A stretch of 64,000 bases of DNA from Glycomyces luteolus. GTDB lineage: Bacteria; Actinomycetota; Actinomycetes; Mycobacteriales; Micromonosporaceae. The notes below the pieces were generated by a model. The model saw only the letters and a list, made by a program, of their open reading frames with translations. It was not told the DNA's origin and did not search any database. This document shows, piece after piece, positions 11,913 through 37,903 of the stretch. The DNA is taken from positions 98,091-162,090 of the forward strand of contig NZ_JAPZVP010000009.1 in the NCBI RefSeq assembly GCF_027622875.1, in the 5' to 3' direction. Position 1 is the stretch's first letter; every line of letters begins with the position of its first letter. The translations under genes were made by a program, and so were the position numbers.

Positions 11913-11937
11913 CCCACAATCCGCAGCTGGACAACGA

Positions 11938-12567
11938 ATGACCCTCTCCAACCCCGGTTGGCCCGTGCACCTGAACCACGGCGACGTCAGCGTCCGCCCT
12001 TTCCGCCGCTCCGACGCCGCGCGCTGGTCCGAACTGCGCCGCGCCAACGAGGCCTGGCTCGCCCCTTGGGAACCCGGCACCGGCACCACCTGGTACGAAG
12101 CCCACTCGCCCGCCGCGTTCCGCGCCATGCTCCGCGGCCTCAAACGCTCCATCAAGGACGGCACGAGCTGGCCCCTCGCCGTCTGCTGGCAAGGCCAGCT
12201 CGCGGGCGGCCTCACCGTCGGCAACATCGTGCGGCGCGCCTTCGGCTCCGCGTACGCGGGCTACTGGATCGACCGCGGACACGCAGGGAAGGGCATCACC
12301 GCGACCGCGCTGGCGCTCGTCATCGACCACGCGCTCACCGTCGGCCGCCTCCACCGCATCGAGGTCAACATCCGGCCCGAGAACGGCCCGTCGAACCGGG
12401 TCGCCGAGAAGCTCGGCCTCCGCCGCGAGGGCCTGCACAAGCGCTACCTCTACATCGACGGCGACTGGCGCGACCACTACGGTTACGCCGTCACCGCCGA
12501 GGAGATCGCCACCGAGCGCATGATCGACCGCATGGCCCGCCTCGCCCGGACCGAAGCCGAGCATTGA
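11938..12567 (+). CDS. GNAT acetyltransferase, RimJ/RimL type
   Basis: This 209-residue protein has the GNAT fold of ribosomal-protein N-terminal acetyltransferases. VSVRPFRRSDAARW is the usual first strand and helix, GYWIDRGHAGKGITATAL is the acetyl-CoA pyrophosphate loop (variant of Q/RxxGxG/A), and HRIEVNIRPENGPSNRVAEKLG is the typical C-terminal RimJ segment. The true substrate cannot be read from sequence. It lies 25 bases after moeA and probably shares its transcript. Confidence 0.9.
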   Translation: MTLSNPGWPVHLNHGDVSVRPFRRSDAARWSELRRANEAWLAPWEPGTGTTWYEAHSPAAFRAMLRGLKRSIKDGTSWPLAVCWQGQLAGGLTVGNIVRRAFGSAYAGYWIDRGHAGKGITATALALVIDHALTVGRLHRIEVNIRPENGPSNRVAEKLGLRREGLHKRYLYIDGDWRDHYGYAVTAEEIATERMIDRMARLARTEAEH

Positions 12568-22893: not shown

Positions 22894-24021
22894 TCAGGCC
22901 AGTTCGAGCAGCCGTTCGTCGCCGCCCGGCGCGGCCACGAGTTGGAGGCCTACCGGCAGACCTTCAACCGTGCCGGCCGGCACGGCCAGACCTGGTGCGC
23001 CCGAGAGCCCAGCGATGCACGTCAAGCGGACGATCGCCTCGCGGTCGGGCGAACCGCCGATCATGAACGCCGGTCCCGGCGCGGCCGGGGTCGCCAGTGC
23101 GGTGCCCTCCGGCAGGCGGTCCCGCACGAGCGCCACCACACCGCTGCGGACCCGTTGCGCCGCGGCGATCTCCGCCTGGTCCAGCTTCGCCGCGTTCGCG
23201 AACCGCATCGCCACGCCCGGTCCGAACTCCGGGTCGTTCGCTTCGATCCACGCGCCGTGCGTCCGCCACGCCTCCCACGCCTGCAGGGTCGCGTACGCGA
23301 CCCGGGCGGTCTCCAGCGGCGCCGCGTCCCCGTTCGCCGCGAACAGCGGCTCGCGGTCGATCGCCAGCCCCAGCTCCTCGACCTTCGGCATCACGGCCGC
23401 CCGCGTGGCCTCCGGGATCTCGTCCCAGATGTCCTGCGGCGCCAGCAGCCTCGTGATCGGCCCGGCCTCCGCCGCGCCCTCAAGGAGGACGCCCATCGCC
23501 AGCCGCAGCGTCGCCGCCTCCCGGGTGAGCACCCCGGCCGTGTCGAACGACGGTGCCAGCGGCACCGCGCCCTGCAGGCTCACCCGCCCGTGCGTCGGCC
23601 GCAGCCCGTACAGGCCGCAGTAGGACGCCGGGACGCGGATCGAACCGCCCGTGTCCGTCCCGAGCCCGATATCCGCCCGCCCCAACGCGACCGCCGAAGC
23701 CGAACCCGACGACGACCCGCCCGGCACCCGCCCCGGCGCGGCCGGATTCTCGGGGGTCCCGTAGTGCGCGTTGGTGCCGTTGAGGCTCCACGCCAACTCG
23801 TCCGTGATCGTCTTCCCAACGACCTTCGCGCCCGCTTCGCGCAGCAGCGCCACCGCCGCCGCGTCCTCGGTCGGCACCTCGTGCGTCTCGAGCCAGCGCG
23901 GGTTCCCCGCGCCCGTCGGCACGCCCGCGAGGTCGAACAGGTCCTTCACCGCCAGCCGCAGACCCGCAAGGGGCCCTTCGCGTCCGGCGTCCTCGATGGT
24001 CCTGATGAACGGATCGGTCAA
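22894..24021 (-). CDS. Amidase, amidase-signature family
   Basis: This 375-residue enzyme belongs to the Ser-cisSer-Lys amidase family. The catalytic Lys is in GLRLAVKDLFD (K26), and the signature VPGGSSSGSASAVALGRADIGLGTDTGGSIRVPAS supplies both serines. It is shorter than the 450-500 residues of GatA or bacterial indoleacetamide hydrolases and ends soon after the substrate-pocket region PGLAVPAGTVEGLPVGLQLV, typical of the compact forms. The substrate cannot be predicted. It stands alone, convergent with the BldM-like gene. Confidence 0.9.
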   Translation of the reverse strand: MTDPFIRTIEDAGREGPLAGLRLAVKDLFDLAGVPTGAGNPRWLETHEVPTEDAAAVALLREAGAKVVGKTITDELAWSLNGTNAHYGTPENPAAPGRVPGGSSSGSASAVALGRADIGLGTDTGGSIRVPASYCGLYGLRPTHGRVSLQGAVPLAPSFDTAGVLTREAATLRLAMGVLLEGAAEAGPITRLLAPQDIWDEIPEATRAAVMPKVEELGLAIDREPLFAANGDAAPLETARVAYATLQAWEAWRTHGAWIEANDPEFGPGVAMRFANAAKLDQAEIAAAQRVRSGVVALVRDRLPEGTALATPAAPGPAFMIGGSPDREAIVRLTCIAGLSGAPGLAVPAGTVEGLPVGLQLVAAPGGDERLLELA

Positions 24022-24316
24022 GGTCCAGCTCCTTCGGCAGTGTGCGGCGGACGCCCTTCACGAGGTCGAGCCCGGTCGTGATCCAGTGTTCCGCAGTCTC
24101 GGCGAAAGGCCCGTCGAGGGCCGCCGCGAGTCGGCGTGTCGGAGTGCGCGGTGAGTTGCGGCGGCACCCGCAGCCGGTCCAGGTCGCGGCCGCGATCCGC
24201 GAAGAGTCCTCGTCGGCCGGTGCCCGTCGGGGCGAGACCGTGACGGGACCGGGACGGACACATGACCGGTCGCCGCAAGCTCTTGATCGAGAACCCCCCT
24301 TCGATCAGGAGCACCC

Positions 24317-25507
24317 ATGGACGCGAACGGCCCGAACCGCGACGACGACACCTCCCGCAAGCCCGAAAAGGACGACAAGAAGCCCCGTCCGTCCGGGCGG
24401 CCCGCCGATGCCGAGGACGAGAACGGCGCGGCGGGACTCGGACTGAGCTTCGGGGTCGGCGCACCGCAACCGGCCGACCCGGCCGGGGCCGGTCCCGACG
24501 TGAACGTCCCCTCCGGCGAGGCCGCCAGTATCGGCCTCGACCCCGACCACGGCGTCTCGAGCAACATCCCGATCGCCGACGCGCAGTTCCAGATCCCGGT
24601 GGGCGACCAGGTCGTCCCGGTGAAGGCCGTGCTCGGCCTGACGCTGAAAGGCTGGGCCGCGATCGGCGGCATCCTCATCGCGGGAGCCGTCGGGATCAGC
24701 GTCGCGAACGCCGAAGACGACACCGGACCGGGCCCGTCCCCCGATCCCACAAGCGAAACGACCGGCTTCGGCGGCGATACGACCGACGTCTGGGGCGGTG
24801 AGGAGACGGCCGAGTACGTCGAATCCGACCCGGTGGCCGAAGCCGCCATCGGCGACTGCTTCGACGTCTCCGGCGACATCGCCGACGTCGAGGTGGGCAT
24901 CGAATCGACGTACTGCGGCGCCGGAGCGTTCGAAGTGATCGACATCGTCGAGGGCACGAACGACCTCAGCGCCTGCGATGCGGAAGAGGACAACGACCAG
25001 TCGGTCACCTCCACGGTCACCGCCCGGGTGCTGTGCCTGGCCTATATCCCCATCGACGGCGACACCGCCTACCGCGCCCAACTCGGCGAATGCGTCTACG
25101 GGCCGAACGACTACAGCTCGGCATGGACCATCTCCGACTGCGACACCGGCGCGTTCGAGGTGATCGAACGCTATGAGGGCGAATCGGATGCGGACGCGTG
25201 CGCCAATGACTCGTACGGGGACCGCGCACGGACCTATGCGGCCACGGACTCCTACTTCGATGTGACGCTGTGCCTCCGGATCATCTACCCCGACGACCTG
25301 GGCTACGCCGAGCAGTACACCTGCATGGTCCTCTACGAGGACGATTCGTTCGAGTACGCGGACAGCTGCGAGACCGCGAACGTCCGTGTCGTGGGCCGCA
25401 CCAGCGACTACGAAGCCTCGGGCTTCTGCGAGGGCTACGGCTGGTCGACTTGGCAGAACCCCGATTTCCCCGAGCACGGCTACACGGTCTGCTGGGAGTG
25501 GTACTGA
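24317..25507 (+). CDS. Single-pass membrane protein with Cys-rich extracytoplasmic repeats
   Basis: This 396-residue protein begins with a highly charged cytoplasmic region (about 1-100), has one transmembrane helix (about 107-131) and an acidic exported region. That region holds a domain starting GDCFDVSGDIADVEV (about 177) and a second partial repeat (LGECVYGPNDYSSAW), each with spaced cysteines and the shared phrase GAFEVI. This resembles LppU/septum-formation-like domains that follow kinases or stand alone in actinobacteria. An ATG with AGGAG-type sequence upstream marks the start. Function unknown. Confidence 0.75.
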   Translation: MDANGPNRDDDTSRKPEKDDKKPRPSGRPADAEDENGAAGLGLSFGVGAPQPADPAGAGPDVNVPSGEAASIGLDPDHGVSSNIPIADAQFQIPVGDQVVPVKAVLGLTLKGWAAIGGILIAGAVGISVANAEDDTGPGPSPDPTSETTGFGGDTTDVWGGEETAEYVESDPVAEAAIGDCFDVSGDIADVEVGIESTYCGAGAFEVIDIVEGTNDLSACDAEEDNDQSVTSTVTARVLCLAYIPIDGDTAYRAQLGECVYGPNDYSSAWTISDCDTGAFEVIERYEGESDADACANDSYGDRARTYAATDSYFDVTLCLRIIYPDDLGYAEQYTCMVLYEDDSFEYADSCETANVRVVGRTSDYEASGFCEGYGWSTWQNPDFPEHGYTVCWEWY

Positions 25508-25529
25508 GCCGTCCACGGCCCCAACGGTT

Positions 25530-25559
25530 ACGCCGCCGTGCCCGGAGGCACGGCGGCGT
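25530..25559 (+). terminator. Hairpin between convergent genes
   Basis: ACGCCGCCGTGCC and its exact complement flank a CGGA tetraloop, 22 bases after the stop of the membrane protein and 15 before the end of the next, minus-strand gene. It can terminate both. Confidence 0.75.
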
Positions 25560-25574
25560 GAGTACTTGCGGCTC

Positions 25575-25979
25575 TTAAGCGTTGAGCGCCTCGGTGATCT
25601 TGCGGGTCATCTCGGCCATGCTCGGGCTCGGCTCGCCCTTGTGCGCGCGGTTCGCCGCCTCGACGGCGACCATGACCGTAGTCCGGAAGTTCTCCGCCTC
25701 GCCCGCGTCCTGCGCCTCGAGCAGCCGCACCGAGTCGGTCAGCGCGGGCAGCACCTGGTCGGCCAGGGCCGCAGCGGACTTCGCTTCGAGCTTGAAGTCG
25801 TTCTTCTTCGACGCCAGCACGTGGCCGACGGCGCCGGTCGCGGCAGCGTAAGCCAGGCTCCCGTCGGTCGCGACCTTGTGCGCCGACCCGGCGAGGCCGG
25901 CGTAGGACAGGAGCGTGACGGCCCCGAAGGCGGCGGTGCGGATGGTGGTCTGGTCCTGGGCGGTGAGGTTGACGTTCAT
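25575..25979 (-). CDS. Small Ala-rich hypothetical protein
   Basis: This 134-residue protein is predicted mainly helical, with no signal peptide. The first half has a weakly hydrophobic Ala/Gly-rich part (about 14-52) and the second half is an amphipathic charged helix region ending MTRKITEALNA. GGAG six bases before the ATG at 25979 fixes the start. I do not recognise the family. It is divergent from the VOC-family gene and convergent with the Cys-rich membrane protein. Confidence 0.6.
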   Translation of the reverse strand: MNVNLTAQDQTTIRTAAFGAVTLLSYAGLAGSAHKVATDGSLAYAAATGAVGHVLASKKNDFKLEAKSAAALADQVLPALTDSVRLLEAQDAGEAENFRTTVMVAVEAANRAHKGEPSPSMAEMTRKITEALNA

Positions 25980-26118
25980 GTCGTGCTCCAGCTTCGTTTC
26001 GGTGAGGTGTCCCTCGTTGATGAAGCAACTATCGGCCGCCCGCCTTGCACCCGCCTGACACCGACCTGACAGCCACGCTGACACCGCGATCGTCATACCC
26101 GCGGTGGATGATGTCGAT

Positions 26119-26496
26119 ATGGAGATCGCATTCAACGTCGTCGTCTTCGACGCCGCAGACCTCGCCGAAGAAAGCACCTTCTGGGCCGCGGTTCTCGGCG
26201 GGACCGTCGACCCGGAAGACGACTGGCACATGGTGTCGGTCGACGGCACGCCCCGCGTCGGAGTCCAGCTCGCCCCCGACCACCGCCCGCCCGAGTGGCC
26301 CGACGGGACGCCGCAGCAGATCCATCTCGACTTGTGGGTGCGCGACTTCGCCGCTGCCCACGAGGAAGTGCTCTCGTACGGCGCCAAACTCCTGAAAGCC
26401 GCCGACGACCTCCATGCGGCAGAGGGCTTCCAGGTCTACGCGGACCCCGCGGGACACCCGTTCTGCCTCTGCTGGCATGAGGACCTCCGATCCTGA
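26119..26496 (+). CDS. VOC (glyoxalase/bleomycin-resistance-like) family protein
   Basis: This ~125-residue single VOC module has paired beta-alpha-beta-beta-beta units: the first contains FNVVVFDAADLAEESTFWAAVLGG and the second QQIHLDLWVRDFAAAHEEVLSYGAK, ending YADPAGHPFCLCWHED. The HLDLWV and GHPFCL segments supply typical metal-ligand positions. Such small VOC proteins are common in actinobacteria and rarely have a known substrate. An in-frame GTG 15 bases upstream is an alternative start. Confidence 0.82.
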   Translation: MEIAFNVVVFDAADLAEESTFWAAVLGGTVDPEDDWHMVSVDGTPRVGVQLAPDHRPPEWPDGTPQQIHLDLWVRDFAAAHEEVLSYGAKLLKAADDLHAAEGFQVYADPAGHPFCLCWHEDLRS

Positions 26497-26934
26497 ACGA
26501 CCGACGGCCGAGACTGATGCTCATGTGCGGCCTCCAAACGCCTCCGAGCCCGCTAACTCGGCGCGAAGGCCGAACTGCGTTGCCTCGCAGCGCCATTGCC
26601 CAAACTGGAGCACCTGGATGTGCGCAACATTCATTCTTTAGGATCTCTCTCTGTCAGGTGTGCCTCGCCTGACCGCTGAACTGGGAATCCGAGTTCGGGA
26701 AGCGGGCTGGATCCGCCCGTGCTTGGGGTCATAGCGGTTTGTCAATTTCTGTATCACGATGCGTGACTGACCAATATGACCAGTTTCAGAACGTGAGCAA
26801 GGTATTGACGGGGTGTGCTGGGGTCGGATAGGTTCTGGTCCAACACGGTCCGTAGCCCCATTCCGGACCGTGCACAGTGGAGTCTTCCCCATCCTGGTTC
26901 CGCTGGTTGCAAACGCCCTGCTCACCCCTGAGCC
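26497..26934 (+). other. 438-base noncoding region with a promoter candidate
   Basis: Base composition falls clearly below that of the neighbouring genes. A sigma-70-like promoter candidate lies at 26805-26834: TTGACG, 18-base spacer, TAGGTT. It points toward the secreted LamG-type gene. No convincing reading frame was found; frames here lack GC3 bias. Confidence 0.5.
26805..26834 (+). promoter_or_regulatory. Candidate -35/-10 promoter for the LamG-type gene
   Basis: TTGACG and TAGGTT are separated by 18 bases, about 100 bases upstream of the TTG start. Assigned by eye only. Confidence 0.4.
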
Positions 26935-28458
26935 TTGACCCCTGGAGATCCCTCCATACCCGAAACCCTCTCGGGCGGCCGCTGGCTGCGCCGACTCGCC
27001 GTCCCTGCCCTGCTCGCGGGACTGCTCCTGGTGGTTCCCGGCACCGCCCAAGCGCAATCGTGTTCCACTGAGGTCTCGGCGATGGAGTGGGGGATCACCT
27101 CCACCGTCCAATCGGCCGCGAACGCGGGCACCTCGTCCTTGTCTTTCCAGGTCCGCAACTACTCCGAGACCGAAGAGCAGCGGTGGATCCGGGTGTGCAA
27201 CAACGCGCAGCTGCGCGTCAAGTGCAACACGCCGCCGGACCAGCCGCTGATGGGAAACATGTGGACCAAGCCCGGCGGCACCTGCCAGTGGACGCTCGAC
27301 GTGAACGTCTCGTACACGAACAAACTGCCGATCCTCTACACGCGGGCCTACGACGACGACAACAACGTCGGCAACGAATGGGGTCCGTCCGACCCGCTCT
27401 CCGAGGAGATCAAGGTCCAGTGGCAGCTGCCCAACACCAGCGATGTGGTCATCTACACGGCCACGTCCGGCTGGAATGAGGCGGGAAGCGTGTTCCAACT
27501 CAACCTCGCGACTGCTGCAGGCCTGCCTGCAATCGCCTCCGGGACGGAGGTCCGCTGGGAAGCCCGCGCCTACGACGGCGTCTCGTATTCGCCGTGGTCG
27601 TCCGCGGGTTCGCCCTCGCGGTGCCGGTTCATCTACGACACCACCGCACCGAACCCGCCACAGGTGACCAGCACGAGCTTCCCCGAGCTCACCGACACCT
27701 CCGAGACGGTCGTCCCCATGGTCGGCAAGAACGGGACGCTGACCTTCGACACCGACAGCGCCAACGTAGTCAAGTACACCTACGACTTCTCCAAGGACGG
27801 CGCCGGCCCGCAGACCGTGACACCGGATGAGGTCAGCGGGCCCGCCACGGTCAACTACCTCCCGATGCTGCCGGGAGCGGAAACGCTCACCGTCAGCGCG
27901 ATCAACGCGGCCGGGAGTTCATCGGAGTACACGTACGCCTTCATGGTCTCGACCGCCGACCCAGCCGGTGTATGGACCCTGGGCGACGCCGCGGGCAGCA
28001 CCAAAGCCGTTGATATCAGCGGCACGAACCCTGGGACACCCGGGACGGGTGTGACCTTCGGGTCCGCCGGTCCGGGCACCGCGACCGCCGCGGTCTTCAA
28101 CGGCACCGCGAACGCCTACATCGACACGAAGAAGTACGCAGTGGCGCCGACCGGCAAGAGCGTGTCGATCGCCGCCTGGGTCAGGGTCGACAACCTCGCC
28201 AAGAACGGGACGGTCGCGTCGATCGACGGCGGTCTCGGCGAAGCCGGCATGATCCTGGGCTACCGCTCCACATCGGCCACGAGCGGCCGATGGGTGCTCT
28301 CGATGCCGGACATGGCCATGGGCGCGTTCACTTCCTGGGAGGTCCTCGGCGGCCAGGTCACGACCGGTAACCAGGACGAGTGGGTCCACCTGGCCGGCGT
28401 CTGGAGCGAGGCCACCGGCGACATGACCCTCTATGTCAACGGCGCTGCCGCGGGCTGA
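26935..28458 (+). CDS. Secreted LamG-domain protein, apparently C-terminally truncated
   Basis: This 507-residue product starts at TTG 26935 and has a Sec signal peptide (RRLAVPALLAGLLLVVPGTAQAQ, cleavage after AQA at about residue 41). Fibronectin/Ig-like beta domains follow (about 45-330), then a LamG (concanavalin-like) domain beginning near ADPAGVWTLGDAAGSTKAVD. The LamG domain stops in its last strands at MTLYVNGAAAG and a TGA, with a second in-frame TGA two codons later. Proteins of this layout in actinobacteria are often much longer, carrying RHS or other C-terminal modules. The following DNA is lower in GC and contains broken fragments, so I infer a truncated gene. What was lost cannot be told. 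Confidence 0.7.
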   Translation: MTPGDPSIPETLSGGRWLRRLAVPALLAGLLLVVPGTAQAQSCSTEVSAMEWGITSTVQSAANAGTSSLSFQVRNYSETEEQRWIRVCNNAQLRVKCNTPPDQPLMGNMWTKPGGTCQWTLDVNVSYTNKLPILYTRAYDDDNNVGNEWGPSDPLSEEIKVQWQLPNTSDVVIYTATSGWNEAGSVFQLNLATAAGLPAIASGTEVRWEARAYDGVSYSPWSSAGSPSRCRFIYDTTAPNPPQVTSTSFPELTDTSETVVPMVGKNGTLTFDTDSANVVKYTYDFSKDGAGPQTVTPDEVSGPATVNYLPMLPGAETLTVSAINAAGSSSEYTYAFMVSTADPAGVWTLGDAAGSTKAVDISGTNPGTPGTGVTFGSAGPGTATAAVFNGTANAYIDTKKYAVAPTGKSVSIAAWVRVDNLAKNGTVASIDGGLGEAGMILGYRSTSATSGRWVLSMPDMAMGAFTSWEVLGGQVTTGNQDEWVHLAGVWSEATGDMTLYVNGAAAG

Positions 28459-28545
28459 CGGTGACAGGTGCGGAATCGGATACTGAGTAGGAGAACTTCA
28501 GGTACGGGACACCGGCGGGCAGGCTGCGATCCTGAGTTCGCCTAT

Positions 28546-28773
28546 GACAATTACGGGGAGTATCCCGCCATCACCCCGAATGTGGTCGGCGAGTGGGGAT
28601 ATATCAAGGCTCCGCGGGGGGTCGACGAGACGCTTCACAAGTGGTCGGTCTCCGCGGGTCCCACGAAGGCGCGACCTGTTGCGGCGCTTGTGAATGCGGC
28701 CCGAAAAGGGGTCAGGGTCACCGAAATCGACTACCGCACCCGTCGGCCCAGGGATCTGACAGTGAAGTCGTAG
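28546..28773 (+). pseudogene. Fragment related to the C-terminal half of the 29098-29691 protein
   Basis: The frame reads DNYGEYPAITPN, later LHKWSVSAGPTKARPVAALVNAARKG. This aligns by eye with DNYDRYPLVRPN and GKWSVNIGSTKASKIAGLIDAAGKS in the intact membrane protein 550 bases downstream. The N-terminal membrane helices and PH-like part are missing, so it is a 5'-deleted paralogue. It ends at an isolated TAG (28771-28773). Confidence 0.65.
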
Positions 28774-29052
28774 GGTGCGTTCACGCTCAATCCGAGGGAA
28801 CTGGGCTGGAATCTATTTGACGCTGCGATGTTCACTGAGAATGTAGGGTACGGCGCGTGCGAGGCAGCGAAGGAGTGCACCTCGCGCGATGAGACGTACT
28901 TCGGTTGGGGTGATGACGATTCCGGATCCGGTAGCAGTGGAGGCGGAAACTCCAGCTCCTCCAGCTCCTCCGGCTCTGGGTCATCCGGTGGGGGTACCTC
29001 ACAGTCTTCAGATGGAAGATACTATGTTTCGAAGAACCTCTACTTCACCTGA
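28774..29052 (+). pseudogene. Frame continuation after a TAG, with Ser/Gly-rich tail
   Basis: Immediately after the TAG and in the same frame the sequence continues AFTLNPRELGWNLFDAA, has two cysteines (YGACEAAKECTSRDE) and then a Ser/Gly linker of ~35 residues. The TAG could be a nonsense mutation of CAG in a single longer gene. ATG at 28828 gives a 74-residue frame but no ribosome binding site is seen. I do not recognise the segment. Confidence 0.4.
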
Positions 29053-29097
29053 CATCGGGGTGGGGTGCGGCGATAGATCGAGGAGAGGTCCTGCGGA

Positions 29098-29691
29098 ATG
29101 AGCGTCAAGCAGGCGCATTTCGGTAAGATGCTTGCCGGCGTGAGTTGGTATGTATGGCTACTGGCCGGCATCGCATCGGCGATTTTCATCGCGGGACTCT
29201 TCCGAGTGAACCCGGACAATCCAATCGGCCTGGTGGTTGGGGCGCTGATGTTGGCGGGTCTGGCAGTGGGGTTCCATCGCAGAATCCTGCTCATTCCGGT
29301 AGTGGAGACCACTGAGGCCGGCCTCATCCTGCGGCCCGCTTCCCAGGGCGGATATCTTTTTTACAAATGGGAGGATATCCAGGAGGTGGTGATCTGGTAT
29401 CAGCGCACCAATGGCGACAAGTCCACAATGGTCGGTATCCTGCCTCGAGTGAAGCGTGAGCCCGACAACTACGACAGGTATCCACTTGTCAGACCGAACG
29501 ATCGGCGCTCGACGGGCCCATATCCGCGATATGTCGCCGGCCTCGTCGGGAAATGGTCGGTGAATATCGGATCGACAAAGGCATCCAAGATAGCCGGACT
29601 CATCGATGCCGCCGGAAAGTCTGTGCCGGTAGTCGAGAATCCGCTTTGGTCTGATGAGGTTAGGGCGCTGAGCCATCCTCAACCTGAATGA
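29098..29691 (+). CDS. Two-helix membrane protein with PH-like domain
   Basis: This 197-residue protein has two transmembrane helices (about 15-36 and 41-60) and then a cytoplasmic part that reads like a bacterial PH domain: GLILRPASQGGYLFYKWEDIQEVVIWYQ, ending in the helix KASKIAGLIDAAGKS. AGGAGAGG precedes the ATG. GC is visibly lower than the flanks (about 53% in the line I counted). A 5'-deleted paralogous fragment lies just upstream, behind a truncated secreted protein. A tandem intact/fragment arrangement is what toxin-immunity loci leave behind, but immunity function here is only a guess. Confidence 0.65.
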   Translation: MSVKQAHFGKMLAGVSWYVWLLAGIASAIFIAGLFRVNPDNPIGLVVGALMLAGLAVGFHRRILLIPVVETTEAGLILRPASQGGYLFYKWEDIQEVVIWYQRTNGDKSTMVGILPRVKREPDNYDRYPLVRPNDRRSTGPYPRYVAGLVGKWSVNIGSTKASKIAGLIDAAGKSVPVVENPLWSDEVRALSHPQPE

Positions 29692-29747
29692 GTGGTCGGT
29701 CGTCGGTACGCTCATGTCGTTCTGACATGAGAAGGGAACACACCCCC

Positions 29748-31490
29748 ATGACCCGATCGGTCTCACGCCGCAACCTGTTCAAGATCGGCGGCGGCGTAGC
29801 CGTCGCGGGAGTCGGTGCCTCCGTCGCCTTTACCGCGCACGCGCAGGACGTCGAACCCGCCCAGGCCTTGCATTCCAGCCTCGTCTACCCCGGCGCGGAC
29901 GGCAAACTCAACTACGCTCTCGAAGAACAGAGCGACAGGAAGATCCCCAACTTCAGCTGGGCCGGGTACCGCAACGGCGAAGCTCCCATTCCAACGGCGG
30001 AGACCGTGCCGGCCGCCGTGGAGCTCGAACCGATCCCGGGCGAGACCGACGCCACCGTCCGCATCAACGCCGCGCTGGCAGAGGTCGCCGCGAAGCCCAA
30101 GGACGCGAACGGCTTCAAGGGCGCGCTGCTGCTCCATCCCGGCCTGTACCCGGTCGCCGAGACCATCGAGCTCAAGTACAGCGGCGTGATCCTGCGCGGT
30201 TCGGGCCGCACCGGCGATCCCGCCGTGAGCACGATCATCAGGTCGACCGCGAAGGCGGGCACCGAGAACGAGCTGACCGGGGTCGAGTGCCCGATCAAGA
30301 TCGGATCCGATGACATGGGCGTCAAGTGGGAGACCATGCCCGACGGCACCGCCCCCGTCCCCATCCCCATCACGTCCGAGCTGGTGACCGCCGGTTCACG
30401 AAGGTTCGCGATCGAATCCACTGCTGGTCTGGCGGTCGGCGACAACATCATCATCTGGCACCCGTGCACGTCGGACTGGATCGACGCGATCGACGGCGGC
30501 GGCGTGACAGCGAGGCCGCCGTGGGAGCCCGACAAGCACCCCATCATGTACAACCGGTTCATCAAGGCGATTCCGACTGAGAACGAGATCCTCATCGACG
30601 CCCCCGTCTTCAACGACCTCAACTTCGATCTCTCGAAGAGCTACGTCTACAAGTGGTCCAATCCGAACGAGGTAGTCAACGCGGGCGTCGAGAACCTGCG
30701 TGTGGACATGGGTCTTCTCGCTGAGGAGACCAAGGAGGAACAGGAGAACGAGAAGCACGCGGACAGCTGCATCGTCGTGTCGCGCAGCCGGGACACCTGG
30801 GTGCGCAACGTGTCCACTCTTCACTTCAAGCGGTCCGGCGTCATGGTCCGCCGCAGCCACCGGGTCACCGTGGACGACGTCTGGGCCCGGGATCCGCGGT
30901 CGCGACCGGTGGGCGGGATGCGCTACAACTTCTGCGCCGGGTACATGGCCCAGCAGGTCCTGTTCACGAACGTATGGGCCTCGCAGGCCAGGCATGCCTT
31001 CGTCGCGGGCGGCGGCGCTTCGACCTCAGGCGTCGTGTGGCTCGACAGCCGCTCCAACAACGGACTCAAGGAGTCGGGCGGGCACGCGCATTGGAGCCAG
31101 GGCCTCCTGTTCGACAACGTCCGGGAGGAGACGAGTGAAAGCGATCGCGACGAGGTGTTGAACCTGCACAACCGCGAGGATGGGGGTGCCGACGAGTCGG
31201 CCGACGCCCATGGTTGGTCGTCGGTCTACAGCGTCCTGTGGAACTGCACGGTCGGCGACGGCAAGGATGGATTTGGCAGGCAGGCGTGCGTCCAGCAGCC
31301 GCCGACCTCGCAGAACTTCGCCATCGGCACCAAAGGCACCGGTGTCAAAGACACCGATGGCGTGGTCAGGGTCGTCTCCGGGGAAAGCTGGATTGTGACG
31401 GAGCCGATCGGGTTCGTGGAGCACACCAACAAGAACGTGGAACCGGCGTCGCTGTACCGCAAGCAACTCGCCGACCGCCTGGCACCTTGA
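29748..31490 (+). CDS. Tat-exported right-handed beta-helix protein
   Basis: This 580-residue protein has a twin-arginine signal (SRRNLFKIGGGVAVAGVGASV, cleavage near AHA-QD). The mature part has the look of a pectate-lyase-like parallel beta-helix: GFKGALLLHPGLYPVAETIELKYSGVILRGSG is the usual first coils, and later coils repeat short N/V/W strands such as SCIVVSRSRDTWVRNVS and HFKRSGVMVRRSHRVTVDDVW. No specific catalytic signature is recognisable, so a polysaccharide lyase or hydrolase role is only likely. GAAGGGAA before ATG 29748 sets the start. GC3 returns to normal here. Confidence 0.75.
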   Translation: MTRSVSRRNLFKIGGGVAVAGVGASVAFTAHAQDVEPAQALHSSLVYPGADGKLNYALEEQSDRKIPNFSWAGYRNGEAPIPTAETVPAAVELEPIPGETDATVRINAALAEVAAKPKDANGFKGALLLHPGLYPVAETIELKYSGVILRGSGRTGDPAVSTIIRSTAKAGTENELTGVECPIKIGSDDMGVKWETMPDGTAPVPIPITSELVTAGSRRFAIESTAGLAVGDNIIIWHPCTSDWIDAIDGGGVTARPPWEPDKHPIMYNRFIKAIPTENEILIDAPVFNDLNFDLSKSYVYKWSNPNEVVNAGVENLRVDMGLLAEETKEEQENEKHADSCIVVSRSRDTWVRNVSTLHFKRSGVMVRRSHRVTVDDVWARDPRSRPVGGMRYNFCAGYMAQQVLFTNVWASQARHAFVAGGGASTSGVVWLDSRSNNGLKESGGHAHWSQGLLFDNVREETSESDRDEVLNLHNREDGGADESADAHGWSSVYSVLWNCTVGDGKDGFGRQACVQQPPTSQNFAIGTKGTGVKDTDGVVRVVSGESWIVTEPIGFVEHTNKNVEPASLYRKQLADRLAP

Positions 31491-31505
31491 TCGCGTAGGA
31501 CGTGA

Positions 31506-31538
31506 AAACGGGCGGGTCCGCGAAGGGCTCGCCCGTTT
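31506..31538 (+). terminator. Hairpin after the beta-helix gene
   Basis: AAACGGGCG and CGCCCGTTT form a 9-bp stem around a 15-base loop with some internal pairing, 15 bases after the stop; the second arm ends in a short T run. Confidence 0.6.
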
Positions 31539-31716
31539 CGGTTGCTCACGGCGGACAGGGCAGGCAGGGCGGAGAGCAACGACGATGCGGCAGTGGATGG
31601 TCGGGCTCGGTCTCTGGCTTCGAGCCCTCGATGTGTTGCGGTTCAAGCAATCAGCGACAAATTGGTCGCTTCCTCCCGGGCCTGGTTCTCGGCTTCGATG
31701 GCACGGGTGCTTGCGA

Positions 31717-33513
31717 TTAGGGCGGGCAGCGACCTAGGGGTGGGTGGGGGCTGGGCTTCCTCTTCGGCATTCCGGGGTACGAAAGCGGGCTCTCTCGGGG
31801 CGGGCTCTTCTCTGGGCATGGTGAGGGGCCCGAGCCCGTGTGGGTTCGGGCTGCGCTGCTGGTGTTGCGGCGACGCTTCCCCTCAGCAGTCGCCCGCTGA
31901 GGGCAGGGTAAGAATGGTGGTTCCCCGTAGTCGGCCTCACTGGTCGCACCAGCCATCACCTTCGAGGCCCTAGGCGCTTCGATTGGTTCGGAAGGCATGG
32001 GGGCCTGGATGATCCGCGCCGGGCTCGGTGGTGTCGCCTGGCTCGGTTCACCGAACCTCTCTCGGCACTTCGCTCTTGCGGCCTTGATGCCTTTCAGCGC
32101 CCGGTCGCGGTCGATGGCCTCAGCAAGCGCATCGAGGTCGGGCTTCAATGCTTCGGACCACTCAGAGCGGTAGAGGCCGGTGGGGAACACATCCCAGTCG
32201 GTGCCGTGGTGTTCGGTGTCCATGTCCGCATCGGTGCGCCAGTCGGAGCAGCCACACCCAGCCGACGTGTCGGTGGTGGCGCTCTCGATGTCGTGGCCGT
32301 CGTGGTGGGTGATGATCGCGTGGCCCGGACCGGTCTTCTCCACCGACCAGCCCGCAGTGTGGATGCGGCCGTGGTGGAACCGGCACAGCAGGATCAGGTT
32401 CTCCGCGACCGTCGCCCCGCCATCGGCCCAATGCTCGATGTGGTGCGCCTCAGTCCAGGCGACCGGCCGGTCACAGCCCTGCCAGGTGCAACCCCCTGGC
32501 TGCTCGAGCTCCAGCTTCCGGCGCAGCGCGGCGTTGGGGAGGCGCAGGGCCCGACCGAGTTCGACCGCTTCACCGCTCTGGAAGTTGAAGACTGAGGGGA
32601 TGATGACGCCTTCGCAGGCGAGGAGCCGGGCTCGGGCTACTGAGATCGGCTGGCCCTCCAGGAGGGGCAGGCGGCCGGTGTCTTTGCCCTGCAGGGTCTC
32701 GATGTCGACGGTGAGGTCGAGGGTGGCGGTGTGGCCGTGCCGGGTCGCTGCCTGGGGAGAGGAACCGTACCCGGCGAGGAGCTGGTGGAGGGCTTCTGCG
32801 TGCCGGTTCTCAGCCGGTGGCAGGAGCCCGTCTGCGTCCTGCTCTTCTTGGCGCGGGGGCGGGCACGCCGTCTGAAGGTACTTGTCCAGGAGTCGCCCGG
32901 TCGCATCGCTGAGTTCGGCTGAGAGGCTCCACATGCCGTTGTCCTGCGGGACCAGTTCCAGACGCTGCAACGACTGCGCGCCAAGATCATCGAACAACTC
33001 GACCTCTTCAGCGATCGAGGCCCAGAGCTCGTCGAGGTGGCGGCGGAGGTCATTGAAGGAGGCATGCGCGCAGTACTCGGCCACCATCGCTTCAGGCGTC
33101 GTGCATTCGACCGTGGCGTCGAAGGGGGAGGGGACGGGGGTCCTGAAGGGGGTGCGGGCGAACAGGCGCATCGCAGTGGTCTGATCCAGCTGCCGGACGG
33201 CGTAGGCGACCTGGTCGATCCGGGCCTTCCCTGTCGTTGCCGCCTCTGCCAGGAGACGGAACTTGCCTGAGAGGCGGGCGATGGCCGCGATGGAGCCTGC
33301 CGTGTTGAACGTGAAGTCGAACTGGGAGAGCAGCAGGTCCCGGAGAGCGGAGAACCCGAACTCCGAGCGGTGCAATCCGGAGGCCTTCATCTCGATGACC
33401 GCGGACAGGACGGCCGCGTGCTGGGTGTTGATGAGATCGGCGGCTTGGTCGAGGGTGGAGCGGATGGCTTGGGCTTGGGTGTGGCGGTCCTGTGCGGGGG
33501 TAGTGGCAGCCAT
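31717..33513 (-). CDS. DUF222 / HNH endonuclease protein (13E12-repeat type)
   Basis: This 598-residue protein has an N-terminal DUF222 domain (about 15-320) and an HNH nuclease module (about 345-405) with CTWQGCDRP, AWTEAHHIEHWADGG and ENLILLCRFHHGRIH, which hold the zinc-binding Cys/His and catalytic His. The last ~130 residues are Pro/Ser/Arg-rich and unstructured. Members of this family correspond to the 13E12 repeat proteins of mycobacteria and are frequently multicopy and mobile-like in actinobacteria. CACCTCC-type complement before the ATG gives a good GGAGG ribosome binding site on this strand. Confidence 0.9.
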   Translation of the reverse strand: MAATTPAQDRHTQAQAIRSTLDQAADLINTQHAAVLSAVIEMKASGLHRSEFGFSALRDLLLSQFDFTFNTAGSIAAIARLSGKFRLLAEAATTGKARIDQVAYAVRQLDQTTAMRLFARTPFRTPVPSPFDATVECTTPEAMVAEYCAHASFNDLRRHLDELWASIAEEVELFDDLGAQSLQRLELVPQDNGMWSLSAELSDATGRLLDKYLQTACPPPRQEEQDADGLLPPAENRHAEALHQLLAGYGSSPQAATRHGHTATLDLTVDIETLQGKDTGRLPLLEGQPISVARARLLACEGVIIPSVFNFQSGEAVELGRALRLPNAALRRKLELEQPGGCTWQGCDRPVAWTEAHHIEHWADGGATVAENLILLCRFHHGRIHTAGWSVEKTGPGHAIITHHDGHDIESATTDTSAGCGCSDWRTDADMDTEHHGTDWDVFPTGLYRSEWSEALKPDLDALAEAIDRDRALKGIKAARAKCRERFGEPSQATPPSPARIIQAPMPSEPIEAPRASKVMAGATSEADYGEPPFLPCPQRATAEGKRRRNTSSAARTHTGSGPSPCPEKSPPRESPLSYPGMPKRKPSPHPPLGRCPP

Positions 33514-33907
33514 CTGACACCTCCTCGAACAATCCGGTTGATTTCGCTTGCTTGTGCTATATCAAGCATAGGTTAGTCAGGGGGTGGATGTCATCGCCCA
33601 AACGGGTGAATATTCGATCTTTTCGCAGGTCAGTGGCACCGTCACCCGCGGTCGGGCGTGTCGGCCAGCGCCCCGGGGCAGATAGAGGCGAAGGTTGCAA
33701 TCCGACCGAGGTAGCTCAGCCCTCTTTGTCGCTGCCAGGTTGAACGCCGAGACGAATCGAGCGGGAAACCGAAGGACAGGCTGAGGAGCCGCCTGCCTCG
33801 TTGTCGTTGCGCGACTGAAGCTTGACGGAGACGGCGCGAAACGCCTCAGCGGTGCGCGGTGGGCAGAATCGCCTCGGGTCAGCAGGCGCTCATGGGGACT
33901 GCGCATT
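33514..33907. other. Divergent promoter region between HNH gene and patatin gene
   Basis: An AT-richer stretch holds a 6-bp inverted repeat (TGCTTG-N8-CAAGCA, 33549-33568), about 40 bases upstream of the HNH start and suited to an operator. The remainder toward the patatin gene has no coding-type frame and no clear promoter. Confidence 0.45.
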
Positions 33908-35041
33908 GTGGCCATTCGGGTTATCCTGGGGACAATCCGATTCCGCCGCTCCACCGCACCCCTGAGCGAGGCCGAATTGTCCGATGCATATGCCTTCGAC
34001 GCCGACCGGTACTGGGCCGACGATCATCCTGTCCTCGAACTGATCCGATCCCGTCAATCCGCTGACTCCAAGCCCGGATCGCGGGTCGACGGGTTCAAGC
34101 TCGGCCTGGCCGTCGAGGGCGGCGGGATGCGCGGAGTCACTTCCGCCGCAATGCTCGTCGCCCTCGACGACCTGGGCCTGCGCGGCGTGTTCGACGCCGT
34201 GTACAGCACGTCGTCGGGTTCGATCAACGCCGCCTATTTCATGGCGGGCGGTGATTGCTGGTATCCGCTGACCATCTACTTCGACGACCTCTGCACCCGC
34301 AAGTTCGTTGACATGCGGAACATGTTCAACAAGCGACCCATGCTCAACCTCGACTACGCCTTCGACGAGGTCCTGGAGACGATCAAGCCCCTCGATTTCG
34401 AGAAGATCTTGAAGAACCCGGCAGAGTTCCATATCACGATTAGCCTGGTGGACAGCCTGACTCCCATTGGGCCGCATGAGTTCGAGTCCCGGGAGGACTT
34501 GAAGTCCGCGTTGAAGGCGAGCTGCTGGATGCCCGTCGCCGTCCCCGGCACCGGCATGTTCCGCGGCCAGCGCGCCCTCGACGGCGGCGTGCTCACCGCC
34601 CACCCCTCCCTCCTGGCGATCGAAGACGGCTGCACCCACGTGCTCTCCCTCAGCACCAAGCCGATCAAGCCCCCGCCCACGCGGCTCTCGAAGGGCCGCC
34701 GCTTCTCCGTCGCCTACCTCGAACGGATCCAGAAGGGACTCGGCCAGGCCTATGTGGCCTCGCAGCTCCAGTACTGCACGCAGCGGAAGCAGTTGCAGCG
34801 CTGGATGACCGAGCCCGACCCCGGCGCGAAGGTGCTCGACCTCGCGCCGCTGCCGTGGATGAAGGAGGTCGGGAACCAGACCAGGGACCGCGACGTCCTC
34901 ATTAACGCGGCACGCCACGCGCACGCCGTCATGGCCGCTGCCATCCAGGGCATCCCGGTCTCGGAGATCCGCGACGGTTCGTTCCGGTCCGTGCCCCGCA
35001 TCGTCACCGTGAGGACCGCCAATGGCGAACGGATCGGTTGA
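33908..35041 (+). CDS. Patatin-like phospholipase
   Basis: This 377-residue protein is a patatin-type serine lipid acyl hydrolase. The oxyanion motif is EGGGMRG (70-76), the nucleophile elbow is YSTSSGSIN with S102 (first Gly of GxSxG replaced by Ser), and the catalytic Asp is in RALDGGVLTAHPS (about 224). There is no signal peptide or membrane helix, so it is cytosolic. The start is GTG at 33908. It overlaps the next gene, a membrane kinase-like protein, by 20 bases, so the two are co-translated and probably act together. Regulated patatins serve as membrane-damaging effectors in several anti-phage systems, but no known sensor gene is adjacent. Confidence 0.88.
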   Translation: MAIRVILGTIRFRRSTAPLSEAELSDAYAFDADRYWADDHPVLELIRSRQSADSKPGSRVDGFKLGLAVEGGGMRGVTSAAMLVALDDLGLRGVFDAVYSTSSGSINAAYFMAGGDCWYPLTIYFDDLCTRKFVDMRNMFNKRPMLNLDYAFDEVLETIKPLDFEKILKNPAEFHITISLVDSLTPIGPHEFESREDLKSALKASCWMPVAVPGTGMFRGQRALDGGVLTAHPSLLAIEDGCTHVLSLSTKPIKPPPTRLSKGRRFSVAYLERIQKGLGQAYVASQLQYCTQRKQLQRWMTEPDPGAKVLDLAPLPWMKEVGNQTRDRDVLINAARHAHAVMAAAIQGIPVSEIRDGSFRSVPRIVTVRTANGERIG

Positions 35042-37376
35042 CCTCCTCGCCGCCGCATGCGCGCGCCTCACCGGACGCACCGATGAGCGGGACGCCGAAC
35101 GGAAACTCAACGGCTGGAGCATCAGGGACTGGCGGAGCGCGCTCCTCGACGTGCCGCTCGACGAGCGCGCCTACGCCGACCGCTTCCTGGTCGATCGGGT
35201 CGTCGAGATCAACCGGCTGTGGACCTGGTGGTCCGCTCCTGAGCCCGACGACCGCGTCACCCCCGAAACCGCCGGCTTCCTTGGGCTGTTCCTGCTTACC
35301 CTGATCTCGATGCACCGCTCGGACCGGATGCGGTACCACGGCGAGGCCTATGAGGCCGTTGCGATCTCAGGCCAGTCGACGGACGCGCTGTGCACGGTGC
35401 TCGTCGCCGATCCCCGTGTGCAGGGCGCCATCAAGCGGCTCTATGCGCCTTCACCGCAGAAGGGCAGGAAGGCGGCGACGGTCTGGGGTCGGGTCGACTT
35501 CAACACCGTGGCCTTTCACCGGGGCGGCACGACCTCGTTCATCCTCACCGTGGACACCGTCCCCCAGCCCGGTGTCCGCACGTCGAAGTACGCCCTCAAG
35601 TGCCTCATCTACCCCTATCTGCGCAATCCGGCGATCGTCAAGGCCACCAACGACTACGACAAAGTATTCGGCGGCGAGCGCGGCGGCGACTCGCCCCTCG
35701 TCGCAGTCTGGGCCAGCCACGACAGCTGGATCATGATGGAGTTCCTCGAAGGGGACACGCTCGCCGACAAGCTCCGGGAGATCGCGAACGGCCGCAAGGA
35801 CCCGAGGTCCGAGCTCCTGCGGCCCGTCGACATCGAGCAGCTGCGCGCCCTCGGCACCCTGCTGCTCAACGCGATGACCGCGCTCGCGGAGGAGGTCGGG
35901 CACCACAACGACCTCACGCCGTCGAACATCATCGTTCAGAAGGAGAACGGCGCCCCGGTCAGAATCAAACTCATCGACCTCGGCGTGAACTTCCTCCACA
36001 CAAGGACGCTCGTCGGAGCCGAATCCCGCGAATCCGTATACATCGCACCGGAAGTCAAGGCCACTGGCAAGGGCGGCGATCTGGCGGACCTGTACTCGGT
36101 CGGCATGGTGCTCATCGCGATCGGCGGGATCCCCCATAGTGCGCCGGGCACGGTTCCCGACCAGTTCTACGTCGCCTCAGTCGGTCTCGCGCGACTCCTC
36201 GAGGACCTGGTCGACGCCGACCCGAAGCAGCGCCTGGCCGTCTCCGGCATCGACCCCGGCCGCGGCCGCTTCGCCGAGATCCGCGACCTCTTCGAGTGCG
36301 AGATCGAAGTGCTGGAAGCGGCCGAGAAGAACAAGCCGAAGACCCCCTACCAGCGGTTGAAGAACCTGCTGCCGGGAGTGAACGCGGTCAATCGCCAGCG
36401 CGAGATCTGGAAGGTCCGCCGCAGACAGGCCAAGCGGATCGACAAGCGGAAGCATCCGATGCGGGCGCACCACCTGCGGCAGGCTCGGGGACTCAAACGC
36501 TGGGCCGTCGCCTGCGCGTTGATATCGTGGGCGACTCTGGCGCTCATCCTGACCTGGTGGTCACGGGACCTCGACTTCTTCTGGCAGGCGAAGTGGGTGG
36601 AGTACGCCAACGGCCTCCTCAACCGCTCGGGGGACCAGAGCGTCCCGTTCCTCGACGACTTCCGGGCCTCGGACTACCCGATCCCGGACGCATGGGGCAA
36701 CCTGCCGGTGCGGATCGTGGCCCTCTCCTATGCGATTCCGGGTCTGCGGCTGTACATGAACATCTTCGCCGACATGACCCCGCGTTCGGCGATCCGCAGG
36801 CGCGGCTGGAAGGGTGTTCGCACGGCCGCGGCCTCGTTCATGATGCGGGGCTCGGCGGTCTACCCGAGCGTGTACATCCTGCTGCCTACGCTGGTGCAGC
36901 GGAAGTGGTGGTTCCTGTTCTCCCCCTTGGGAGTCATCACGGTGGCGACGCTGATCACGGCGTGCCTGTGGTTCGCGCTCGACTCGAACGCCCGCGCCCG
37001 CGCCTGGGACGGCGGCAAGGGCCTCTCGACCGTCCCCAAGGGAGAGATCATGACGTTGCAGCGCCTGGTGTCCTGGCAGCCCACCGCGTGGCTCTACGCC
37101 CTCACGGTGGTCGTCATCGGGATCTTCCTCTACAACGACCGACTGCAGGACGAGCTCATGTACGCGATCGCGATCGCACTGATCAACATCGGCATCCAGA
37201 CGTTCAAGAACACCGGCTCCGACGCGCCGTACGTGCGGGCCGGGCTCGCGCGGGCGATCCTCGCGGCCGAGCGGCTCGACGTCCTGGAGGAGCGGGAGGC
37301 GAAGGCGAAGGCGGCCGGAAAAGCCCCGAAGCCCCGCGCTGATGAGCCGGTGAAGGAGGCGCAGCCGGTCGCCTAG
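35022..37376 (+). CDS. Kinase-like protein with C-terminal multi-pass membrane domain
   Basis: This 784-residue protein has an uncharacterised N-terminal region (1-165), a Hanks-type kinase-like domain (about 165-430), a basic linker, and about five transmembrane helices (roughly 494-515, 610-625, 630-655, 687-705, 711-728). Kinase landmarks: YALKCLI with K193, HHNDLTPSNIIV (HND for HRD, D297, N302), IDLG for DFG (D319) and YIAPEV. The key Lys, Asp, Asn and Asp are kept, so activity is possible, but the usual Lys after the catalytic Asp is Thr and the glycine loop is poor. The topology differs from PknB-type kinases, which have one helix and an external sensor. It overlaps the patatin gene by 20 bases. 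Confidence 0.8.
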   Translation: MANGSVDLLAAACARLTGRTDERDAERKLNGWSIRDWRSALLDVPLDERAYADRFLVDRVVEINRLWTWWSAPEPDDRVTPETAGFLGLFLLTLISMHRSDRMRYHGEAYEAVAISGQSTDALCTVLVADPRVQGAIKRLYAPSPQKGRKAATVWGRVDFNTVAFHRGGTTSFILTVDTVPQPGVRTSKYALKCLIYPYLRNPAIVKATNDYDKVFGGERGGDSPLVAVWASHDSWIMMEFLEGDTLADKLREIANGRKDPRSELLRPVDIEQLRALGTLLLNAMTALAEEVGHHNDLTPSNIIVQKENGAPVRIKLIDLGVNFLHTRTLVGAESRESVYIAPEVKATGKGGDLADLYSVGMVLIAIGGIPHSAPGTVPDQFYVASVGLARLLEDLVDADPKQRLAVSGIDPGRGRFAEIRDLFECEIEVLEAAEKNKPKTPYQRLKNLLPGVNAVNRQREIWKVRRRQAKRIDKRKHPMRAHHLRQARGLKRWAVACALISWATLALILTWWSRDLDFFWQAKWVEYANGLLNRSGDQSVPFLDDFRASDYPIPDAWGNLPVRIVALSYAIPGLRLYMNIFADMTPRSAIRRRGWKGVRTAAASFMMRGSAVYPSVYILLPTLVQRKWWFLFSPLGVITVATLITACLWFALDSNARARAWDGGKGLSTVPKGEIMTLQRLVSWQPTAWLYALTVVVIGIFLYNDRLQDELMYAIAIALINIGIQTFKNTGSDAPYVRAGLARAILAAERLDVLEEREAKAKAAGKAPKPRADEPVKEAQPVA

Positions 37377-37744
37377 TCCGGTTCCTGGCCGTTCGTCTTG
37401 ATCCAGCAGTCCGAGAAGCCCCGGGCGTAGTCCCAGGTCACGTAGTGGGCCGGATCGGGGTCGAAGGCGGGCTCGTGGACCTGCGCGCAGTTGGCCTCCA
37501 GGAGGCCGCGCAGGTTCGCCATGAGCAGGCCCCAGGTGAAGTAGTGGGGTTCGTCGCAGTCCTCGCAGTCGACGACGACGCCGCGGTAGCCCTGCGGATG
37601 CAGGACCTTCTCGAACAGCTCCAGTTCGTGGAGGTCTTCGAGGAGGTCCGCGCGGTCGTCGTCGTCCAGTTCTGGGTCGAACGGGGCGAGCGCCTCCGCG
37701 TGGTCGGGATCGTCGGCGAACGGGTCGCGTGGCTCCTCATACAC
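37373..37744 (-). CDS. DUF5319 family protein
   Basis: This 123-residue acidic protein matches an actinobacterial family: YEEPRDPFADDP at the N-terminus, LFEKVLHPQGYRGVVVDCEDCDEPHYFTW in the middle (with a CxxC) and EPAFDPDPAHYVTWDYARGFSDC at the end. The mycobacterial member (Rv3412) lies next to guaB2 and the sigD locus, and guaB follows here too. GTG at 37744 is chosen because conservation begins there; upstream codons are not conserved in type. Function unknown. It overlaps the end of the convergent kinase-like gene by 4 bases. Confidence 0.85.
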   Translation of the reverse strand: MYEEPRDPFADDPDHAEALAPFDPELDDDDRADLLEDLHELELFEKVLHPQGYRGVVVDCEDCDEPHYFTWGLLMANLRGLLEANCAQVHEPAFDPDPAHYVTWDYARGFSDCWIKTNGQEPD

Positions 37745-37903
37745 AATTACCAGCCTAACCCTTGGCAACGACTTGCCGAGTGAGCGCAGTGCGCGGGCGG
37801 TGACTCCCGGATGCGTGCCAGCCTCGGCTCCGCGTGCTGACACCGCGCGGCGGGCTCGTTAGCATGGGCCGCAAGTCAACCCGCTAACACTGAGGAGACG
37901 GCC

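Follow-up and report, generated by a model that had tools for sequence, protein, structure and literature searches.

A patatin-type phospholipase and a membrane kinase-like protein encoded by a conserved two-gene unit in scattered actinomycetes

In a 64,000-nucleotide stretch of the Glycomyces luteolus genome (contig NZ_JAPZVP010000009.1, positions 98,091 to 162,090; hereafter, the window), a gene for a patatin-type phospholipase of 354 residues (33977..35041, forward strand) overlaps by 20 bases (35022..35041) a gene for a kinase-like membrane protein of 784 residues (35022..37376, same strand). The pair is a real, conserved two-gene unit in scattered actinomycetes. We further propose that it acts as one functional unit, a membrane phospholipase gated by the kinase, a reading in which both the gating and the task are putative and to which we would give slightly less than an even chance. 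It draws on the adjacency of the genes, their overlap, their insertion as a two-gene block, the retention of catalytic residues and purifying selection, all of them sequence-level results. A preliminary description of the locus had known of no described two-gene set of this layout, and no account of the pair was found in the open-access literature consulted (PMC), including passages of PMC12839542. Rereading the sequence returned both open reading frames (ORFs) and their overlap at the positions given in that description, apart from the start of the patatin.

Homologs were counted in two samples totalling 399 genomes, 200 from the family of the window and 199 from one genus, which we take to be Streptomyces. 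Patatins were assigned to the subfamily when scoring above 250 bits against a profile (A2) built from the window protein and 19 of 120 patatins among the matches listed; this cut was chosen after the scores were known (the lowest member scores 293 bits and the remaining fetched patatins at most 173), and patatins with weaker matches were only partly fetched. The kinase profile (A1) was built from the window protein and 23 of 98 kinase homologs, and it separates a near group (at least 602 bits) from a distant one (406-424 bits). Counting one patatin per genome, a kinase gene adjoins 28 of the 32 subfamily patatins, which is more than chance would give and agrees with the co-occurrence on which the preliminary description had made its proposal depend; conversely, a patatin adjoins 28 of the 30 near-group kinases. 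The pair is present in 13 of the 22 sampled genomes of the window's genus (nine are without it), in 10 of the remaining 178 genomes from the family and in 5 of the 199 presumed Streptomyces. Patatin comes first in 26 of the 28 pair loci, kinase first in one (L049), and the two genes converge in another (L054), the last two cases indicating that adjacency outlives the operon layout. The same 20-base overlap occurs in eight loci; in the remainder, one of which is convergent, the stop-to-start step of the profile match ranges from -38 to +131 bases.

These pairs occupy several unrelated chromosomal places across distant actinomycetes. Their neighbors include H+-pyrophosphatase and topoisomerase genes in L046, sigma-70 and trypsin-like genes in L059, luciferase-like and acetyltransferase genes in L043, and rRNA adenine dimethylase and OrfB/IS605 transposase genes in L039, a Glycomyces locus in which the transposase, of TnpB type (10715-12103), is the immediate neighbor of the pair on its kinase side. 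In some lineages, several species share one location of the pair (L046-L048 with L050, and L059-L061).

The site occupied in the window, the interval between an amidase gene and a DUF5319 gene (22894-37843), is a place of variable DNA in Glycomyces. The DUF5319 gene (37373..37843, reverse strand; Pfam PF17252, E 2.4e-39) forms its right chromosomal boundary and is present in all 15 other Glycomyces searched, while the amidase gene (22894..23949, reverse strand; Pfam PF01425) forms the left boundary in empty genomes; neither belongs to the unit. Of the 15 Glycomyces in which this site lacks the pair, six carry it elsewhere; in 12 of the 15, the two boundary genes are separated by 81-1682 bp, with intervals of 81-226 bp at five empty sites (L078, L079, L084, L086 and L092); in the other three the amidase gene falls outside the stretch examined. 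In G. amatae (L036), in contrast to the empty sites, the interval measures 3.66 kb and holds only the patatin and kinase genes, and this comparison identifies the pair as a two-gene accessory cassette.

In the window the interval spans about 13 kb, some 10 kb of it besides the pair, and the further variable DNA (24317..33513, outside the unit) is missing from the segment that separates amidase gene and pair in G. amatae. It encodes a protein with a laminin-G domain (27031-28458), a 600-residue protein with a weak twin-arginine translocation (Tat) signal match and no family above cut-off (29688-31490) and, adjoining the pair, a DUF222-HNH protein (31717-33513, reverse strand). The window annotation confirms this last gene where the preliminary description had noted it; within the stretches examined it occurs in only two of the seven loci with the pair at the site (the window and L033), and for this reason we do not count it as part of the unit. 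The same description had spoken of accessory DNA, and the stretch is indeed an insertion, but one side of it is core chromosome (DUF5319 and two genes of the IMP dehydrogenase (IMPDH) family). That two unrelated genes merely hitch-hike on one mobile stretch would be in keeping with the other genes acquired at this site (24317-33513), with kinases and patatins that in places occur alone and with the transposase adjoining the pair in L039. We nevertheless regard it as very improbable, since the genes are adjacent at several unrelated sites across genera, reversed and convergent layouts included, the G. amatae site holds nothing else, and the count of 28 in 32 disfavors it.

Both genes appear to be maintained for function. 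Across the seven Glycomyces loci at the site, a rough method gave a median ratio of nonsynonymous to synonymous substitution rates (dN/dS) of 0.25 for the patatin and 0.39-0.48 for regions of the kinase, as compared to 0.20 for the neighboring IMPDH-family gene, values that indicate purifying selection on both. The key residues singled out in the preliminary description (patatin S102, kinase D297 and D319) have not been lost, being invariant in all 28 pairs. The closest named relative found is Glycomyces niveus, the kinase of which is 90% identical to that of the window.

The patatin had been described as starting at a GTG codon at 33908, an assignment that comparison with relatives does not bear out. 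A TTG occupies the position equivalent to window position 33977 in all seven loci at the site (the window and six relatives), where it is preceded by the ribosome-site-like GAGCGAGG, and the distance from a fixed motif to the start codon varies between 33 and 40 nucleotides in these loci without keeping to steps of three. Because this variation is out of codon step, 33908-33976 is a conserved non-coding leader; the database entry for the window patatin also has 354 residues. A block upstream of the start (33895..33976, forward strand), found by alignment to be 84-94% identical over 59-98 bases in all six relatives that carry the pair here, likely acts as promoter, with leader and ribosome site, and belongs with the pair.

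The patatin matches the Pfam Patatin family (PF01734) with an E-value of 5e-15 and 56.6 bits, above the curated cut-off of 27.7, over model positions 1-187 of 191. The motifs reported in the preliminary description, GGGMRG (71-76), S102 and DGG (225-227), are present in the ORF translation and in the alignments; residue numbers follow the ORF from GTG 33908, so that counting from TTG 33977 requires subtracting 23 (S79, D202). In all 28 pairs S102, D225, G71-G73, R75 and G76 are invariant, whereas the first glycine of the GxSxG motif is kept in 9 but replaced by S in 17 and by A in 2, and the second glycine of DGG is replaced by A in 4. The protein thus contains the Ser-Asp dyad and oxyanion glycines of a patatin-like phospholipase and looks active, as a putative lipid acyl hydrolase. 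Single-sequence hydropathy detects no hydrophobic stretch in it, hence no predicted membrane helix. Its best solved match is PlpD (5fqu, 2.7e-6), with which the nucleophile and Asp regions align; PlpD is a secreted, one-gene protein, in contrast to the two-gene unit and the patatin without predicted membrane helix described here.

The second protein consists of an N-terminal region (1-150), a kinase domain (approximately 155-420), a linker, six predicted membrane helices (approximately 494-732) and a short tail. The kinase domain matches Pfam Pkinase (PF00069) with an E-value of 6.7e-11 and 42.5 bits (curated cut-off, 31.7). The previously noted K193, HND (295-297) and DLG (319-321) motifs are evident in translation and alignments, and K193, H295, D297, N302, D319, G321, P343, E344 and R404 are invariant in the 28 pairs; the catalytic Lys, HxD Asp, Asn, DxG Asp and APE are also kept in all seven unpaired kinases. 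We did not find the glycine-rich loop and helix-C Glu typical of Hanks kinases. The GxGxxG site is occupied by GTTS, in which the G, the second T and the S are invariant and the first T is kept in 27 of the 28 pairs, and across model columns 191-235, which correspond to helix C, Glu occurs in at most 5 of the 28 at every column, one T and one Y being kept in 27 and 28 pairs, respectively. The N-lobe (residues 155-240), with its GTTS and no conserved helix-C Glu, yet with catalytic residues invariant, is that of an unusual kinase subtype. It is likely, but not certain, that the protein functions as a protein kinase.

These peculiarities of the N-lobe are what would favor a different relationship between the two proteins, in which they share a pathway without direct control and the substrate of the atypical kinase is a lipid, lysolipid or small molecule that the patatin either produces or consumes. 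The invariant GTTS loop and the missing helix-C Glu can be read in this way, as can the restriction of the Pfam match to positions 71-190 of the 263 in the kinase model, but the catalytic loop and the APE and Arg motifs are those of a protein kinase, and the best solved matches are protein kinases (ULK, calcium-dependent and PknB). On balance, we consider a shared pathway of this kind highly unlikely.

The preliminary description gave about five membrane helices, a figure that hydropathy averaged over 24 relatives revises to six in the C-terminal half; from the window sequence alone, five hydrophobic stretches are obtained in total, three of them in that half. Family-mean charges before, between and after the six helices (+2.5, -3.2, +2.7, +0.3, +2.3, -1.5 and +2.1) fit an alternation of inside and outside loops that would place the kinase domain in the cytosol. 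A further stretch (79-97) also exceeds the helix cut in the family mean; we read it as a buried helix, with a seventh membrane crossing possible, in which case residues 1-78 would lie outside. The membrane part was not encountered in other domain combinations, its 24 matches all being full-length members of the kinase family. Among the seven loci at the site, residues 1-150 are the most divergent part of the protein (mean identity 0.66, as compared to 0.82 for the predicted exposed loop, which is not hypervariable), and the membrane part diverges less rapidly than this N-terminal region.

Taken with the gene layout, this architecture suggests how a kinase-gated phospholipase might operate. The kinase-like protein would be anchored in the cell membrane by its C-terminal helices, its kinase domain in the cytosol, and would receive a signal through the fast-changing N-terminal region or the membrane part. 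Once signaled, it might phosphorylate or release the cytosolic patatin translated from the same mRNA and recruit it to the inner leaflet of the membrane; there the lipase would cut acyl chains off the cell's own phospholipids. In short, the two genes probably encode a signal-operated switch for cleavage of the cell's own membrane lipids. The interpretation given in the preliminary description is partly supported; regulation of the phospholipase through the kinase is an inference.

Several observations weigh against this proposal. Catalysis by the kinase is uncertain because no helix-C Glu is conserved. The pairwise identity matrices of the two proteins correlate closely (r = 0.90 over 28 loci, with none of 2000 permutations as high), but such a correlation can be obtained from shared descent alone, and both proteins have the same nearest relative in only 13 of the 28 loci. 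Each gene also occurs without the other: four subfamily patatins lack a kinase (G069, G135, G046 and G770), two near-group kinases lack a patatin (L038 in G139 and L045 in G163), as do five of the distant group (L055, L056, L064, L065 and L069) and, apparently, the Promicromonosporaceae kinases, which form 12 clusters of that name, a name borne by no patatin in the best 120 of 640 matches, many of which are nameless. Eleven of these Promicromonosporaceae kinases nest within the paired clade in a midpoint-rooted tree. Each of the two near-group cases is a second kinase copy, its genome having a pair as well.

The unpaired kinases show some further features. L038 and L045 nest inside the paired clade; in L056 and L069, of the distant clade, the next gene encodes a MEDS-HATPase protein; and for the Promicromonospora and Myceligenerans kinases (P0028-P0051) no patatin of those names is found among the matches listed. 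Kinases without a patatin may have lost the lipase, rely on a lipase acting from elsewhere or use another effector in its place, and loss or exchange of the effector is possible for L038, L045 and the Promicromonospora/Myceligenerans lineages. In wider searches of a phylum sample, the patatin profile gave matches in 5 of 396 genomes, of which four, all but the window, have distant patatins scoring 149-170 bits, and the kinase profile in 2 of 396; a Promicromonospora kinase gave matches in 2 of 369 genomes of a class sample, where no close kinase was found. These counts are too low, because only two to five candidates were scored per genome. A tandem pair of distant patatins without kinase was seen in L070, a 2-Mb genome from another family of the same phylum.

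No specific model in Pfam, NCBIfam, PADLOC or PHROGs recognizes the pair above its cut-off. Patatins are effectors of cyclic oligonucleotide-based antiphage signaling systems (CBASS) and other anti-phage systems, and in CBASS the lipase is paired with a regulator gene. The CBASS effectors and the anti-phage phospholipase DS2_1 share with the protein described here a patatin domain that contains the nucleophile Ser and the Asp, but the similarity is weak (CBASS_lipase, 15.7 bits with a cut-off of 200; DS2_1, 17.4 with a cut-off of 400), and in the present pair a membrane kinase takes the place of the nucleotide cyclase as partner. Among the flanking genes of the window (DUF222-HNH, DUF5319 and the two of the IMPDH family) there is no CD-NTase, a statement that comes from their annotation and not from a dedicated search. 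With Hanks-type receptor kinases (PknB/PASTA) the second protein shares a cytosolic kinase domain, predicted in the present case, and a membrane anchor. PknB, however, has one membrane helix, as opposed to six predicted helices and an atypical N-lobe here, and the Stk1/PknB model scores 22.3 bits (cut-off, 450). The defence kinases PD-T4-6, MAD6 and PglW have the kinase domain in common and match weakly, only over the kinase core (approximately residues 230-406), and belong to systems that are not known to have such a membrane part or lipase partner; BREX (bacteriophage exclusion) PglW scores 21.4 bits for a cut-off of 990 and MAD6 16.1 for 460, both far below threshold.

Anti-phage abortive infection is a rival to be weighed, in which the kinase would detect infection and activate the patatin, so that the membrane is broken and the cell dies before phage maturation. 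The role of patatins in CBASS and a match of PADLOC effector models to the patatin at 3.6e-6 point this way, and a patchy two-gene insertion (13 of 22 genomes in the genus, 10 of 178 in the family, 5 of 199 in the presumed Streptomyces) with a kinase that changes faster than the lipase, fastest of all in its N-terminal region, would fit defence. Signs of defence, in contrast, are weak or absent, whether sought among neighboring genes, where the preliminary description had proposed to score an association with defence islands, or in collections of plasmids, phages and viral contigs. We scanned 118 of 128 neighbor proteins from 13 of the 28 loci against PADLOC at 1e-10, ten overlapping or repeated-synteny ones having been omitted by hand. 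Matches to 26 families resulted, and of the 25 shown, 24 were each found in one protein and only one, HTH_VI, in two. Several single matches are strong (PDC-S48, 4.5e-136; MzaA, 2.5e-65; Csx1, 2.9e-31) and count in favor of abortive infection, although neither they nor the matches to DpdF and DEDDh were assigned to a particular gene. When 20 neighbor proteins were also scanned singly, the proteins matched included an FtsK-like protein (L054) and an ABC transporter (L039), a result that counts against abortive infection. Other single scans matched PDC-M37B and DolB (L051:13769-16312), PN-superfamily and PDC-M60C (L040:5503-7032) and GlgB (L059:16210-17877), and matches of Cas12f type are consistent with the OrfB/IS605 transposase of L039. 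We did not adopt the defence-island reading.

It is possible, therefore, that single candidate defence genes lie near some pair loci, but ordinary regulators, hydrolases and other enzymes make up the neighbors identified beside the pairs, in addition to the TnpB-type transposase of L039. Moreover, kinase relatives were found neither in plasmids (E up to 1e-20) nor in phages (1e-5) or viral contigs, and patatin matches in plasmids and phages do not exceed 77% coverage and 36% identity. PADLOC matches of the pair proteins themselves are confined to the N-terminal motif region of the patatin and to the kinase core, and with curated NCBIfam defence models both score far below cut-off. The predicted exposed loop, not being hypervariable, also speaks against abortive infection. 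We therefore judge this rival unlikely, a defence function being neither supported nor excluded by these results.

A role in envelope or lipid homeostasis, in which the kinase would read the state of the membrane (fluidity, turgor or hyphal growth) and tune a non-lethal lipid remodeling, deserves similar attention. The hosts named in the homolog listings are mycelial actinomycetes; the shared location of the pair in several species of some lineages and the slower change of the membrane part relative to the N-terminal region at the seven site loci agree with such a role. The patchiness of the pair within the genus and the clean empty sites do not, as 9 of the 22 sampled genomes manage without it, and we find homeostasis an unlikely explanation. 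The patchy distribution and cassette form argue instead for a conditional task, such as immunity, self/non-self recognition or severe envelope stress, and we think that the pair is more probably engaged in a task of this type than in routine lipid metabolism.

A bolder formulation, which we hold to be doubtful, is that the pair represents the first polytopic membrane kinase with an atypical N-lobe to gate a patatin, serving in mycelial actinomycetes as a two-gene cassette for attack, on command, on the cell's own membrane or for its reshaping, the kinase occurring elsewhere free of the lipase, perhaps with other effectors. The unit is small and comes with clean empty-site controls. If the kinase does gate the lipase, these actinomycetes would possess a compact switch for regulated cleavage of their own membrane. 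Well-known bacterial patatin effectors are driven by nucleotide messengers; the pair, if correctly interpreted, would link kinase signaling to patatin effectors.

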